DNA from: Gemmatimonadaceae bacterium
Lineage (GTDB): Bacteria > Gemmatimonadota > Gemmatimonadetes > Gemmatimonadales > Gemmatimonadaceae
DNA length: 41,626 bases
Direction of reading: 5' to 3'
Assembly: GCA_013697785.1 (NCBI GenBank)
Contig: JACCWE010000058.1
Coordinates: forward strand, 1-41,626
Shown here: positions 23,508 through 41,626 of the stretch, in pieces
How positions within the stretch are numbered: position 1 is the first letter of the stretch
Layout of the letters: each line of letters begins with the position of its first letter
Made by a program: the position numbers and the translations under genes
The notes under the pieces: model-generated
The model's database searches: none
Told to the model about the DNA's origin: nothing
The model's input: the letters and a program-made list of their open reading frames with translations, nothing else

Positions 23508-23548
23508 AAAAAGCGGGGCGTCGCCGAGATTCCGGCGACGCCCCGCTT
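23508..23548 (-). terminator. Strong intrinsic terminator of the ppiD-like gene
   Basis: A perfect 16-bp stem with six-base loop: AAGCGGGGCGTCGCCG (23511-23526) and its complement (23533-23548). Read on the minus strand it is followed by TTTTT (five A at 23508-23512 on plus). It lies about 20 bases beyond the minus-strand stop at 23569 and serves that gene. Confidence 0.92.
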
Positions 23549-36422: not shown

Positions 36423-36797
36423 ATGACGGCGGCGTCTCAGGTGCTAGGAGCGGAGGGCGAGCGAATCGCAGCGGAGTGGCTGGTCGAGCGAGGGTGGCGG
36501 ATCCTGGAGCGGCGCTTCCGGAACGGGCACCGGGATCTGGACCTCGTAGCCGAGCGAAGCGGTGTTGTGGCCTTCGTTGAGGTCAAAACTCGTAGAGGTA
36601 GTGACTTTGGACACCCTGTCGAGGCCGTAAACTGGCGGAAGCAGCGGGAATTGACGCGCTCGGCGTCGGTGTGGATCGCGAGGCATGGAGGTGGGGAACA
36701 GCTGTTCCGATTCGACGTGGTCGGGGTGCTGATCGAAGGCAGTGGCGCTCGAGTTCGCCACATCGAGAACGCCTTTTCGGTCAGATCGGGCTGTTGA
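36423..36797 (+). CDS. yraN: YraN/UPF0102-family nuclease-like protein
   Basis: A 124-residue UPF0102 protein with a restriction-endonuclease-like fold. N-terminal [21 protein letters not shown] is followed by the motif [23 protein letters not shown]40, E53 and K55 are the probable catalytic D-ExK residues. The canonical Glu in GEIDL is replaced by Arg (RDLDL). The function of the family is unclear, with Holliday-junction or general nuclease roles proposed. The ATG at 36423 is preferred; longer in-frame translation would run through the stem-loops and the upstream lipoprotein gene. Its stop codon overlaps the -35 box of the recA promoter. Confidence 0.85.
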
Positions 36798-36822
36798 CAG
36801 CAGGACAGGGGTTTCGTATTTT
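36794..36822 (+). promoter_or_regulatory. Strong sigma-70-type promoter of recA
   Basis: A perfect -35 TTGACA (36794-36799) and -10 TATTTT (36817-36822) are spaced by exactly 17 bases. The -35 shares bases with the yraN stop codon TGA (36795-36797). It would start transcription near 36829, giving a leader of about 87 bases before the recA ATG at 36916. I see no clear LexA box of the CTGT-N8-ACAG or GAAC-N4-GTTC kind. Confidence 0.85.
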
Positions 36823-36851
36823 GTTCGGGTAGTGGTAATAGGGAGTCCCGA

Positions 36852-36868
36852 CGATAGATTTTCTATCG
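36852..36868 (+). other. Inverted repeat in the recA leader
   Basis: CGATAGA (36852-36858) and TCTATCG (36862-36868) form a perfect 7-bp palindrome with a TTT centre, about 24-40 bases downstream of the predicted recA transcription start. It could be an operator (for example for an unusual LexA or another repressor) or a leader hairpin. Function is not shown by sequence. Confidence 0.55.
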
Positions 36869-36915: not shown

Positions 36916-37962
36916 ATGGCTGTCTCCACAGGACAGGAAGAAAAGAAGAAAGCGCTGAATCTGGCGATCGCGCAAATCGAGAAGAGCTGCGGCAAGGGAT
37001 CCATCATGAAGATGGGTGCCGACTCGAAAGTCCGGATCGATGTAATTCCCACAGGGGCCATCAATCTCGACGCGGCGATCGGTGTCGGCGGAATTCCGCG
37101 CGGTCGCGTCACCGAGATCTACGGTCCCGAGTCCAGCGGAAAGACCACGCTCTGCTTGCACGTCGTTGCGAATGCACAGCGCGCCGGTGGCGTCGCCGCG
37201 TATATCGACGCCGAGCATGCGCTCGATACGGATTATGCACAGAAGCTGGGCGTCGATATCGAGAACCTCCTCGTCTCGCAGCCGGACACCGGCGAGCAGG
37301 CGCTCGAGATCTGCGAGATCCTCGTTCGTTCGGGCGCCGTCGATATCGTCGTCATCGACTCCGTCGCAGCGCTCGTGCCGAAAGCCGAAATCGAAGGCGA
37401 GATGGGCGATTCACACGTCGGTCTGCAGGCGCGCCTCATGAGTCAGGCGCTCCGCAAGCTCACCGGCGCCATCGCACGCTCGAAGACCTCCGTAGTGTTC
37501 ATCAATCAGCTCCGCGAGAAGATCGGCGTCATGTTCGGCAATCCCGAGACGACCACCGGCGGCAAGGCGCTCAAGTTCTACGCGTCGGTTCGCCTCGACA
37601 TTCGCCGCATCGGGCCGGTCAAGGAGAAGGAAGAGGTCATCGGCTCGCACGTTCGCGTGAAGGTCGTGAAGAACAAGGTTGCGCCTCCGTTCAAGCAGGC
37701 CGAGTTCGACATCATGTACGCGGAAGGGATCAGTCACACGTCGCTTCTGGTCGACATTGGGTCGGAGTCGGGAATCATCGAGAAGTCCGGCGCCTGGTAC
37801 AGCTACAACGGCCAGCGCATCGGTCAGGGGCGCGAGAATGCCAAGATGTTCCTGAAGGACAATCACAGCATGATGCTGGAGATCGAGGAGAAGGTGAAAG
37901 TCGTGCTCGGGATCAACAAGGATCCCGGCGCGGTCGTCGAAGAGGTCGAAGCGGACGATTAG
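36916..37962 (+). CDS. recA: Recombinase RecA
   Basis: A 348-residue RecA of normal length. Walker A GPESSGKT is at residues 70-77, with [13 protein letters not shown], the Walker [13 protein letters not shown], the L1/L2 loops around [22 protein letters not shown] and [22 protein letters not shown], and KHN-like C-terminal domain with an acidic tail (EEVEADD). It forms filaments on single-stranded DNA for homologous recombination and triggers LexA self-cleavage. The start at 36916 gives [23 protein letters not shown], typical of the family; the frame is open upstream, but that part overlaps yraN and the promoter. recX follows after a structured gap. Confidence 0.98.
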
Positions 37963-37985
37963 CACCAACGCACGCCGGCGAAATC

Positions 37986-38063
37986 GTGCCGAAGGGCGAG
38001 GTGGAGTGGCGAAGGCACCCGGAAACTGTCTTCGTCGCACCCTTCCCCTTCGGCACTTCGTGC
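37986..38063 (+). other. Nested inverted-repeat structure between recA and recX
   Basis: A perfect 11-bp outer stem GTGCCGAAGGG (37986-37996) pairs with CCCTTCGGCAC (38046-38056). Inside it GGTG (38000-38003) can pair with CACC (38038-38041), and CGAAG (38010-38014) with CTTCG (38030-38034). A small hairpin GCAC-TTC-GTGC (38053-38063) competes with the foot of the outer stem. A run of T is lacking. It may modulate read-through or translation of recX, like the recA-recX hairpin of E. coli. Confidence 0.6.
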
Positions 38064-38076
38064 ATCCGGGAGCTAC

Positions 38077-38808
38077 GTGACTGAGTTTTCCTCTCCATCG
38101 CTCGCCCTCGGCGGCGGGAACGACGGTCCCGAGTCGCTCGCGAGCCCCGCGCGCATCTCGGCGATCTCGGCCAGTGCGCGTCACCCCGGGCGCTTCGAGA
38201 TTCTCGTGGACGGCTCCACCGTCGCGACGCTTTCCCTCGATGGTATCGAGCGACTCGGCGTGCGCCTTGGTGTGGCTTACACGGAGTCGCTCGCGAACCG
38301 CGTCGTCGTCGAGTCCGCAGCGCTTCACACCTTCGATCGCGCGCTCGCGATGCTCGCCGCCCGCCCCCGCGCGGCGCGCGATCTCGAGCGCATGCTCGTG
38401 CGCAAAGGGGAGCCCGCGGAGCACGTCGCTGCGGCCGTCGAGCGGCTCATCACCCTCGGCGCGCTCGACGATGCCCAGTACGCGCGGCAGTTCATCCGCG
38501 CCAAGATCTCCGGCGCGGGGCTCTCTCGCCGTCGCCTCCAGTCGGAGCTCTGGCGCAAGGGCGTCGCGCGCGACGTCATCGATGCCGCGCTCACCGAAGT
38601 GCTCGAGGTGGACGAGGTCGACGAAGACGCGCAGATCGCCCAGGTCGCAGCGAAGAAGCTGCGCACCCTTCGCTCTACCGACCCCGCGACGACGCGCCGG
38701 CGATTGTACGCGTTCCTCGCGCGGCGCGGCTACGACGGCTCGGCGATTCGGCGCGTGATGGATGCGCTTCCGGCGGGCGCCGACAGTGAGGCGGACACCC
38801 TCGAATAG
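38077..38808 (+). CDS. recX: Regulatory protein RecX
   Basis: A 243-residue RecX of three-helix repeats. The region RDLERMLVRKGEPAEHVAAAVERLITLGALDDAQYARQFIRAKI, then LSRRRLQSELWRKGVARDVIDAAL and a third repeat, match the family. RecX binds the RecA filament and limits its extension. It is longer than E. coli RecX because of an N-terminal extension of about 85 residues. That extension has a beta-rich core (GRFEILVDGSTVATLSLDGIERLGVRLGVAYTE), as in several GC-rich lineages. The GTG at 38077 has GGGAG upstream. It is downstream of recA, as usual. Confidence 0.9.
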   Translation: MTEFSSPSLALGGGNDGPESLASPARISAISASARHPGRFEILVDGSTVATLSLDGIERLGVRLGVAYTESLANRVVVESAALHTFDRALAMLAARPRAARDLERMLVRKGEPAEHVAAAVERLITLGALDDAQYARQFIRAKISGAGLSRRRLQSELWRKGVARDVIDAALTEVLEVDEVDEDAQIAQVAAKKLRTLRSTDPATTRRRLYAFLARRGYDGSAIRRVMDALPAGADSEADTLE

Positions 38809-38834
38809 CCCGTGCCCCGGGGTCCCGGGTGCGG

Positions 38835-38840
38835 TATATT
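38835..38840 (+). promoter_or_regulatory. Possible -10 element before alaS
   Basis: TATATT lies nine bases before the alaS ATG, the same distance as the -10-like hexamer before the gene at 65. A transcription start 6-9 bases downstream would give a leaderless or nearly leaderless mRNA. No -35 is recognisable in the GC-rich stretch upstream. Confidence 0.35.
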
Positions 38841-38849
38841 TTGAGGCTT

Positions 38850-41626
38850 ATGCGCGCATCCGAGATTCGCCAGCGTTTTCTCTCGTACTTCGAGCGCAAC
38901 GCGCACGCGGTTCGCCCCAGCTCGTCGCTCGTCCCTGCGGACGATCCGACGCTTCTCTTCACGAACGCCGGGATGGTGCAGTTCAAGCGCATCTTCCTCG
39001 GCCAGGAACGCGCGTCGTTCGGCGTACGCGCCACTACCGCGCAGAAGTGTGTGCGCGCGGGGGGCAAGCACAACGATCTTGAGCAGGTGGGGCACACCGC
39101 CCGCCATCACACCTTCTTCGAGATGCTCGGCAATTTCTCCTTCGGGGATTACTTCAAGCGCGACGCGATTCGTTTCGCCTGGGAGTTCGTCACGGTCGAG
39201 ATGGGAATTCCGAAGGAGCATCTGCGCGTCACCGTCTTCGAATCGGATGACGAGGCGCGCGCGTTGTGGAAGGAGATCACTGGCATCGCCGACAGCCGCA
39301 TCTACGGTCTCGGTGAGCGCGACAACTTCTGGCAGATGGCGGACACCGGTCCCTGTGGCCCGTGCACCGAGATCTACGTCGATCTCGCGCATATCGCGGG
39401 CGACTGGGCCTTTCCGAAAGGCGCCACCGGCGAGTGGACGGATACCGAGCGCACCGAGTTCTCGCGCGATGCATTCGTGGAGGGCGCGGAGGCGGGGCGA
39501 TTCCTCGAGATATGGAATCTCGTTTTCATGCAGTTCGACCGTCAGCCTGACGGCGTACTCAGGCCGCTTCCCAAGCCGTCGGTCGACACCGGCGCGGGAC
39601 TCGAGCGCATCGCAGCGGTGCTTCAGGGTGTTACGAACAACTACCACACCGATCTCTTCGTCCCGCTGATAGCGAAGGCCGAGGAAGTGCTGGGGATGTC
39701 GTACGACGATCGGCCGGCTGCGGGTGTGGGCAGTGCGGTGTGGCCCGCGGTTCCCGAGGCGGGTAACCGACCGGTGACCTACGACGCGGTGTCCTTCCGC
39801 GTCCTCGCCGATCACGCACGCGCAATCGCCTTTCTCATCGCGGACGGCGTCTTTCCTTCGAACGATGGGCGTGGCTACGTGCTCCGCCGAATCCTTCGGC
39901 GCGGCGTGCGTCACGCATGGCTCCTCGGCAGGCGCGAGCCCACACTCGACAAGCTCGTGAGCGTCGTCGTCGATCAGATGAAGGACGTCTATCCCGATCT
40001 CGCAACACGCCGCTCGCTCATCGTCGACACGACGCGCGCGGAGGAAGAGCGCTTTCTCGCGACGATCGAAGAGGGAATGCAGCGCTTCGACCAGCTCGCG
40101 CCGGTCGGATCGACGCAGGGATCGACCGCGAGTCGCGGGACGATCAGCGGTGGCGACGCGTTCAGGCTCTACGACACCTTCGGTTTTCCGATCGATCTCA
40201 CGGAGCTGATGGCGCAGGAACGCGGCTACACGGTGGACATCGTCGCCTTCGAGGAGGCGCTGCAGGCTCAGCGCTCGCAGTCTCGCGAGGAGCGCAAGGG
40301 TCGCGACCTCGGCGTCGCCGACGAAGGGCTCTCCGACATCGCGACGTGGGAACGGAAGCCGGGAACGAATGCCCCGAAGGAGTCTTCGAACTTCGTCGGT
40401 TACAGCGGAACGAGTGCCGACACCGAGGTCATCGCGATTCGACGGCTGCCGGGCAAGCGCATCGCGCTCGTGCTGCAGGAAACTCCGTTCTACGCGGAGT
40501 CCGGAGGCCAGGTCTCTGATGCGGGCGAGATCTCGGGAGAGGGATGGAGCGTCGCGGTCGACGAGGTCAAGAAGGTCGATGGGCGACATGTCGCGATCGG
40601 CGAGCTGACTGGTGAATTCCATTTCGGACGCGCGCGGGCGAGCGTGCCGGCCGAGCGCCGCCGCGACACGGAGCGCAACCACACAGCGACGCATCTGCTC
40701 CATGCCGCGCTGCGCGAGGTGCTGGGCGAGCACGTGACGCAGGCCGGCTCGCTCGTCGCGCCGGATCGCTTTCGCTTCGACTTTCATCATCACGGCCCGA
40801 TCAAGCCCGAGCAGCTCTCGGAGATCGAGGAGCTGGTCAATCGCGGGATCTGGGCGAACGTGGACGTGAGCACCGTCGAGCGTCCATATCGAGACGCGGT
40901 CGCATCGGGTGCGATGGCGCTCTTCGGTGAGAAGTATGGCGACGTGGTGCGGGTCGTCAGTATCCCGGGGTTTTCGGTAGAGCTGTGCGGCGGCACGCAC
41001 GCGCGCAGCACGGGCCAGATCGCGCTCTTCAAGATCGTGAGCGAGACGGGGGTGTCGGCCGGCGTGCGACGCATCGAGGCGGTGACGGGTCCGCGCGCAT
41101 ACGAGCTGATTCGTGGCGAAGAGCGCAAGCTGCAGACTCTCGGTGAGCTGCTGCGCGCGCCGGCGGACGGCGTGGTGAAGCGCGTCGAGACGCTGCTCGA
41201 GGAGCGGCGCAAGCTCGAGAAGCGGCTCGAGGAGAGTTTGCGCGGCGGCGGAGATCAGCTGCAGCAGCTGCTCGCCGGAGCGGAGACGATCGGCGCGTCG
41301 CGACTGGTGTCGTCGAACGTGACGGCGGGCGACGTGAAGGAGCTCCAGCAGCTCGGTGACGCACTGCGCGAGCAGCTCGGCAGTGGAGTCGGCGTGCTCG
41401 CGACATCGTTCGGCGAGGGGAAGAGCACGCTGCTGGTGGTCGTCACCGATGATCTGCGCGACAGGGGAGTGCGTGCAGACCAGCTCATCAAGCCGATCGC
41501 CGAGGCGGCGGGCGGGCGCGGGGGCGGGAAGGCGCACATGGCGCAGGCGGGCATACCCGACGCGTCGCGCATCGCCGAAGCGATCGCGCACGCGCCGTCG
41601 GTGGTGCGCGCAGCTCTGGCTGCTGC
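38850..41626 (+). CDS. alaS: Alanyl-tRNA synthetase (truncated by window end)
   Basis: A class II synthetase, open from the ATG at 38850 to the window end (about 925 codons, no stop reached), so the C-terminal tail is missing. The catalytic part has MRASEIRQRFLSYFERNAHAVRPSSSLVP and motif 2 GKHNDLEQVGHTARHHTFFEMLGNFSFGDYF. The editing domain carries the HTATHLLH zinc motif near 40680 and the CGGTH cysteine motif near 40986, which clear mischarged Ser and Gly. A DHHA1-like C-terminal region follows. A stretch near 39715-39790 looks like an extra insertion just before the conserved VSFRVLADHARAIAFLIADG. It charges tRNA(Ala) and is essential. GAGG at 38843-38846 is only three bases from the ATG. 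Confidence 0.95.
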   Translation, partial: MRASEIRQRFLSYFERNAHAVRPSSSLVPADDPTLLFTNAGMVQFKRIFLGQERASFGVRATTAQKCVRAGGKHNDLEQVGHTARHHTFFEMLGNFSFGDYFKRDAIRFAWEFVTVEMGIPKEHLRVTVFESDDEARALWKEITGIADSRIYGLGERDNFWQMADTGPCGPCTEIYVDLAHIAGDWAFPKGATGEWTDTERTEFSRDAFVEGAEAGRFLEIWNLVFMQFDRQPDGVLRPLPKPSVDTGAGLERIAAVLQGVTNNYHTDLFVPLIAKAEEVLGMSYDDRPAAGVGSAVWPAVPEAGNRPVTYDAVSFRVLADHARAIAFLIADGVFPSNDGRGYVLRRILRRGVRHAWLLGRREPTLDKLVSVVVDQMKDVYPDLATRRSLIVDTTRAEEERFLATIEEGMQRFDQLAPVGSTQGSTASRGTISGGDAFRLYDTFGFPIDLTELMAQERGYTVDIVAFEEALQAQRSQSREERKGRDLGVADEGLSDIATWERKPGTNAPKESSNFVGYSGTSADTEVIAIRRLPGKRIALVLQETPFYAESGGQVSDAGEISGEGWSVAVDEVKKVDGRHVAIGELTGEFHFGRARASVPAERRRDTERNHTATHLLHAALREVLGEHVTQAGSLVAPDRFRFDFHHHGPIKPEQLSEIEELVNRGIWANVDVSTVERPYRDAVASGAMALFGEKYGDVVRVVSIPGFSVELCGGTHARSTGQIALFKIVSETGVSAGVRRIEAVTGPRAYELIRGEERKLQTLGELLRAPADGVVKRVETLLEERRKLEKRLEESLRGGGDQLQQLLAGAETIGASRLVSSNVTAGDVKELQQLGDALREQLGSGVGVLATSFGEGKSTLLVVVTDDLRDRGVRADQLIKPIAEAAGGRGGGKAHMAQAGIPDASRIAEAIAHAPSVVRAALAA

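Follow-up and report, generated by a model that had tools for sequence, protein, structure and literature searches.

The gap between recA and recX in the analysed window (the whole 41,626-nt stretch of DNA, from a member of Gemmatimonadaceae, the family containing Gemmatimonas) encodes a real, selected RNA element that is absent from Rfam and from the literature as far as both were searched. Judged by sequence comparison among relatives, its function is probably that of a recA 3'-end transcription attenuator trimming read-through into recX. The two genes are co-directional and leave a gap of 114 nt (37963-38076), in and around which the following features were placed:

36916-37962, + strand, recA (Pfam RecA, 1.4e-140)
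37979-38066, + strand, 88-nt conserved element, identical in three congeneric genomes (G001, G003 and G004)
37986-37996, + strand, 5' arm of the basal 11-bp helix, GTGCCGAAGGG
38018-38023, + strand, apical loop CCCGGA, its letters conserved family-wide
38046-38056, + strand, 3' arm of the basal 11-bp helix, CCCTTCGGCAC, followed here by TTCGTG
38053-38063, + strand, alternative hairpin GCAC-TTC-GTGC, its letters present, not competitive
38068-38072, + strand, Shine-Dalgarno-like GGGAG of recX, partly paired in the predicted fold
38077-38808, + strand, recX, GTG start (Pfam RecX_HTH1, 2 and 3, and open reading frame)

An alaS-like open frame (38829-41624, from a reading of its translation) follows recX, giving the order recA-recX-alaS, an arrangement also known from E. 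coli.

Results

A long unbranched hairpin downstream of recA

The predicted minimum free energy of the gap RNA is -57.9 kcal/mol; 200 dinucleotide shuffles average -40.62 (sd 3.68), and 0 of them reached the native value (z = -4.70). With flanks included (241 nt), the z-score weakens to -2.90 and 2 of 200 shuffles fold as well. The 11-bp outer stem enclosing further helices that had been described in a sequence-only reading of this DNA is present, the enclosed helices stacking on the basal one into a single long hairpin without branches, whose loop is CCCGGAAAC (38018-38026) and whose predicted stem comprises about 31 pairs divided among several helices. At least 25 of the 5540 scanned 90-nt segments of this GC-rich window fold better than the hairpin, those looked at lying mostly inside long open reading frames, and a tally of unbranched hairpins also failed to single out the recA-recX hairpin from GC-rich DNA. 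Raw energy is thus not distinctive, and it is the shuffle z-score, the conservation and the covariation that carry the case. Elsewhere in the window, a perfect 16-bp GC-rich hairpin preceded by an A run (23511-23548) resembles an ordinary terminator.

Conservation, covariation and strand bias

An 81-nt core is identical at 81/81 positions in four congeneric genomes, the own genome included, and at 77/81 in G002, whose copy is 95% identical over 82 nt of the 88-nt element; recA fourfold sites in the same congener pairs are 57-76% identical, and 58-73% identical among the four genomes that share the core unchanged. The stem in G002 carries paired changes, GAAGGCA/TGTCTTC having become GAGGGCA/TGTCCTC.

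Across the family, RNAalifold predicted 19 pairs from 38 aligned hairpins, 16 of them with double changes. In 61 CM-aligned rows (from 62 loci given), an alignment fitted to the structure, which favours covariation figures, 92.8% of cells pair versus 72.2% in shuffled controls, covariation is 0.640 (0.248 shuffled, 0.102-0.223 slid) and double-change cells number 236 (78.6 shuffled). Compensating changes in relatives, named at the outset as the check on these stems, are therefore strongly in evidence: 17 of the 19 pairs are doubly changed, far above the shuffled and slid controls.

Among aligned pairs, G-U outnumbers A-C by 173 to 17, and 61 of 64 cores and 59 of 61 CM rows fold more stably in the sense than in the antisense orientation, by about 11 kcal/mol. 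The G-U excess and the better sense fold argue that the element acts as RNA and not as a DNA palindrome, a bias that could partly follow from the hairpins having been chosen by sense fold and alignment A2 fitted to the sense structure.

A near-invariant loop on a jointed stem

CCCGG never varies among the 38 aligned rows; these, however, had been chosen for having CCCGG, and the loop letters in alignments A1 and A2 and in the 64 cores come from the same preselection. When the hairpin was located without the motif, as the longest unbranched hairpin within 170 nt after recA, a CCCGG(A/T) loop was found in 69 of 76 distinct family loci, part of which had been fetched by covariance model R1, itself built from CCCGG hairpins. 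Of the seven exceptions (L093, L103, L115, L117, L144, L198 and L236), three (L115, L144, L198) nevertheless have a CCCGG hairpin, which the longest-hairpin measure passed over or opened differently. A CsrA-binding hairpin was considered and rejected, there being no PF02599 match in the own genome and the loop reading CCCGGT, without GGA, in 9 of 64 cores.

Pairing is weak at about 5-6, 9-11 and 21-22 nt from the loop and near complete at 24-31 nt. Since the weak points stand at set distances from the loop, the stem is better described as jointed than as a uniform helix. Conserved loop and jointed stem together exceed the needs of a bare terminator, which suggests recognition by a protein, an RNA or some other factor.

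A kept distance from recA and a T-tract in most family cores

Measured over 50 distinct loci, the median distance from the recA stop to the loop is 64 nt (IQR 59-70, range 45-142), and that from the loop to RecX residue 86 has an IQR of 244-390 and a range of 71-1910 nt; the window's own value is 314 nt, near the median. Across the family, the distance from the recA stop is thus kept and that to recX is not. These loci are 54 rows minus the repeat rows L119-L122, with the outlier L222 kept, and the 54-row result is much alike. Extra DNA of about 1.7 kb in G027 (L222) and about 1.2 kb in G187 (L229, L244) separates hairpin and recX, the hairpin staying beside recA. In G105 (G105:C33; L242, L243), recA and recX are 18 kb apart with a hairpin at each end, the two 81% identical over 86 nt; the second, upstream of recX, keeps the structure, so the element is not strictly bound to recA. 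Translations of the genes in between read as polysaccharide-type, and the arrangement may be an insertion, a duplication or a chimeric contig.

Of the 64 distinct family cores, 44 have a T-tract (5 or more T among 8 letters) after the stem and 20 miss this threshold; the background yields such a tract in 4 of 300 segments. The window copy has at best 3 T of 8 after its stem, the intrinsic-terminator pattern (a GC-rich stem-loop, then a T-run) was found 0 times in the window, and no T-run is visible in its congeners in the genus alignment. With no T-tract in the window or its congeners, intrinsic termination is not predicted for the window copy. The initial observation that a T-run is missing is accordingly borne out here; the preference attached to it, for switching at translation or by Rho over intrinsic termination, runs against the T-tracts of most family cores, which point to intrinsic termination as the usual mode. 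By these sequence features, the family looks terminator-like, the window's genus having apparently lost or altered the T-tract part.

Distribution in the genome, the family and databases

A covariance model gave one strong match in the own genome and two more at E 0.9 and 2.1, and a further search gave one full match, the remainder being pieces of 14-22 nt; with a single strong copy, a dispersed repeat (REP or MITE) was rejected. At E <= 0.1, R1 had matches in 125 of the 179 family genomes, spread over 28 of 35 genera, and none in the other 54; the count of 125 is a lower bound because stricter filters were applied and some hairpins (e.g., L144) score low. On 395 phylum genomes, R1 matched 116, of which 106 belong to the family and 10 lie outside it at E no better than 0.001, so that no strong match fell outside the family in this set; three of the marginal outside matches were inspected and rejected, having no recA/recX match in the 1.7-2.1 kb around them. 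A second model, R2, gave strong matches in 6 of 10 chosen family genomes, none in G006, G008 and G010 and a match at E 4.1 in G035. In G006, G008 and G035, recA and recX are separated by a short gap that lacks the hairpin. G010 (L237) has a long gap in which a different, branched GC-rich structure replaces the CCCGG hairpin.

In relatives, recX usually comes directly after recA. Of 37 loci from the order's other two families, 36 have their recX match starting no farther than about 50 nt from the recA stop, the exception being L176 at 139 nt, and such short gaps usually leave no room for the element.

The apical motif GGGGCCCGGAATCCCC, allowing at most one mismatch, occurs at 16 places in 14 of 60 genomes versus 1 for a reversed-pattern control. 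The exact matches (G016, G027) and those in G017 and G034:C25 are the recA-recX element itself. The other 12 places (L250-L261) were set aside: none has a recA/recX match in the 1.1-1.4 kb around it and most fold otherwise. Three of them form 23-27 pairs flanking the loop, but over 73-82 nt their folding energy never falls below -45.0 kcal/mol, and no convincing second element emerged.

Rfam returned no gathering-level match in the window, only microRNA-precursor noise for the recA-recX gap (E 0.35-0.67) and no match in 10 relatives at E up to 0.1, and no likeness of the element to its families was found. The literature searched yielded no mention of the element, and the strings recA, recX and Gemmatimona have zero occurrences in the main text of PMC11109978, PMC8632094 and PMC6429828. 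Public RNA-seq sets for G. phototrophica AP64 (GSE253349-GSE253351) are listed in PMC11406998.

Promoter and SOS context of recA and recX

Two further features lie upstream of recA:

36794-36822, + strand, sigma-70-like promoter site of recA, TTGACA-N17-TATTTT, 10/12 consensus
36813-36829, + strand, family-conserved, SOS-box-like motif TTCGTATTTTGTTCGGG (TTC-N8-TTC), overlapping the recA -10 region

Of 37 loci examined, 29 have the motif TTCGTATTTTnTTCGGG ahead of recA, and 36 of 37 recA upstream regions score at least 13 bits for the conserved motif. Its TTC-N8-TTC form presumably resembles the alphaproteobacterial SOS box. We infer that it is a candidate SOS box bound by LexA, which would make recA SOS-driven. 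Three LexA DNA-binding-domain matches over cut-off occur in the own genome (contigs C11, C134 and C124), two strong and one marginal. A perfect palindrome, CGATAGATTTTCTATCG (36852-36868), also lies upstream of recA, and its core TAGATTTTCTA recurs in 5/5 genus genomes examined.

Between hairpin and recX, no comparable recA-type motif was found: 28 of 36 loci were long enough for scoring, and their best value was 6.2 bits. No promoter-like site was found within 37800-38300, and a weak one (9/12 consensus) lies inside recA at 37751-37778. It is thus probable that recX depends on read-through from recA; another kind of promoter, or one inside recA, is possible.

Discussion

The gap encodes a recA 3'-end RNA element, a jointed stem of about 31 pairs capped by a near-invariant CCCGG(A/T) loop, at which recA transcripts, probably SOS-driven, would mostly end or be cut. 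A minor share would read through into recX and keep RecX low relative to RecA. In the window's genus, where the T-tract is missing, ending may rely on Rho, RNase III or pausing, and the conserved loop may be recognised by a protein or another RNA. Attenuation of this kind is favoured by the covariation, the sense bias, the kept distance from recA, the family T-tract, the absence of a recA-type motif before recX and the E. coli precedent; against it stand the lack of a T-tract in the window and its congeners, the second copy in G105 and the family genomes without the hairpin.

The original work on the E. coli recA-recX termination site is reportedly that of Pages et al. 2003. According to PMC6662834, transcription in E. 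coli terminates at a site between the two genes, which keeps recX low, with read-through amounting to 5-10% of recA mRNA. The present element occupies the same place between co-directional genes, a comparison by position and not by sequence; unlike the E. coli terminator, it has a multi-helix stem of about 31 pairs and a family-conserved loop, and the window copy lacks a T-tract. Likewise, it has the GC-rich basal helix of intrinsic (Rho-independent) terminators and, in 44 of 64 cores, the T-tract behind it, but differs from them in its long jointed stem, its conserved apical loop and the missing T-tract of the window's genus. In mycobacteria, according to PMC3062782, recX also lies downstream of recA and is cotranscribed with it, but the two genes overlap there and recX gains extra expression from a promoter within recA, whereas here a gap with an RNA element separates them. 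Of the mechanisms considered, an attenuator inside the operon, akin to the E. coli recA-recX site, has the best support.

A more specific proposal, possible but less likely than not, is that the element represents a hitherto undescribed class of RNA confined to the family, in which a factor (a protein, an RNA or RecA itself) binds the jointed stem and the CCCGG(A/T) loop and so sets recA/recX termination.

The chief rival to the attenuator is RNase III processing or 3'-end protection, by which the lifetimes of the recA and recX parts of the mRNA would be separated with no role in termination. The roughly 31 pairs, the kept distance from recA and a genus without a T-tract would suit it; T-tract enrichment in relatives suggests termination instead, and a bare double-stranded substrate would presumably need no conserved loop. 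On balance, we regard this reading as unlikely. It is quite unlikely that the recA 3' end gives rise to a stable small RNA acting in trans via its CCCGGA loop, an idea encouraged by loop letters that stay conserved while the stem drifts and by the one strong copy in the own genome, yet for which no target was found. A partly complementary 6-mer, TTCGGG, upstream of recA (35/37 regions) coincides with the promoter/SOS-like motif, so the match may be incidental.

Very unlikely, in our judgement, is a translational switch in which the RNA sequesters the recX ribosome-binding site until a rival hairpin releases it. Its basis in the window is a basal helix that ends 20 nt before the recX start, with GGGAG mostly paired in the predicted fold, and a GCAC/GTGC hairpin whose letters three of the four congeners retain. 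That hairpin had been thought to compete with the foot of the outer stem. The letters do exist (38053-38056 with 38060-38063), but the competition does not hold: the main fold beats the alternative by 8.0 kcal/mol, the pair probability of the alternative is about 3e-6 and its GTGC arm is lost in G002, so that two competing conserved folds were not found for this alternative. Moreover, recX starts aligning with that of the window lie 114, 141, 146 and 190 nt after the recA stop across congeners, and the loop-to-RecX spacing of 71-1910 nt in the family fits such a switch poorly. With GGGAG largely paired in the model, a local translational effect on recX in this window would be a weak but not dead possibility. 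What stands of the original proposal of an attenuator or translational switch is a selected attenuator-like RNA, supported by covariation; the switch with alternative folds lacks support. Finally, a DNA-level palindrome (a protein site or cruciform) is scarcely credible, as inverted repeats covary under either reading but the G-U to A-C ratio and the sense fold, in an alignment fitted to the sense structure, speak for RNA.

The RecA:RecX ratio sets the lifetime of the recombination filament, RecX being a brake on RecA. A fixed-loop RNA between recA and recX in one family is thus a testable case of RNA-level control of this ratio. Should the family-specific, factor-binding RNA class prove true, the DNA-damage response would contain an RNA sensor, placed between an SOS-driven recA and the gene of its inhibitor, recX; recognition of the loop by a factor would give SOS regulation a further layer at the RNA level. 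As a plain attenuator, too, the element would define an RNA family that annotation could carry.
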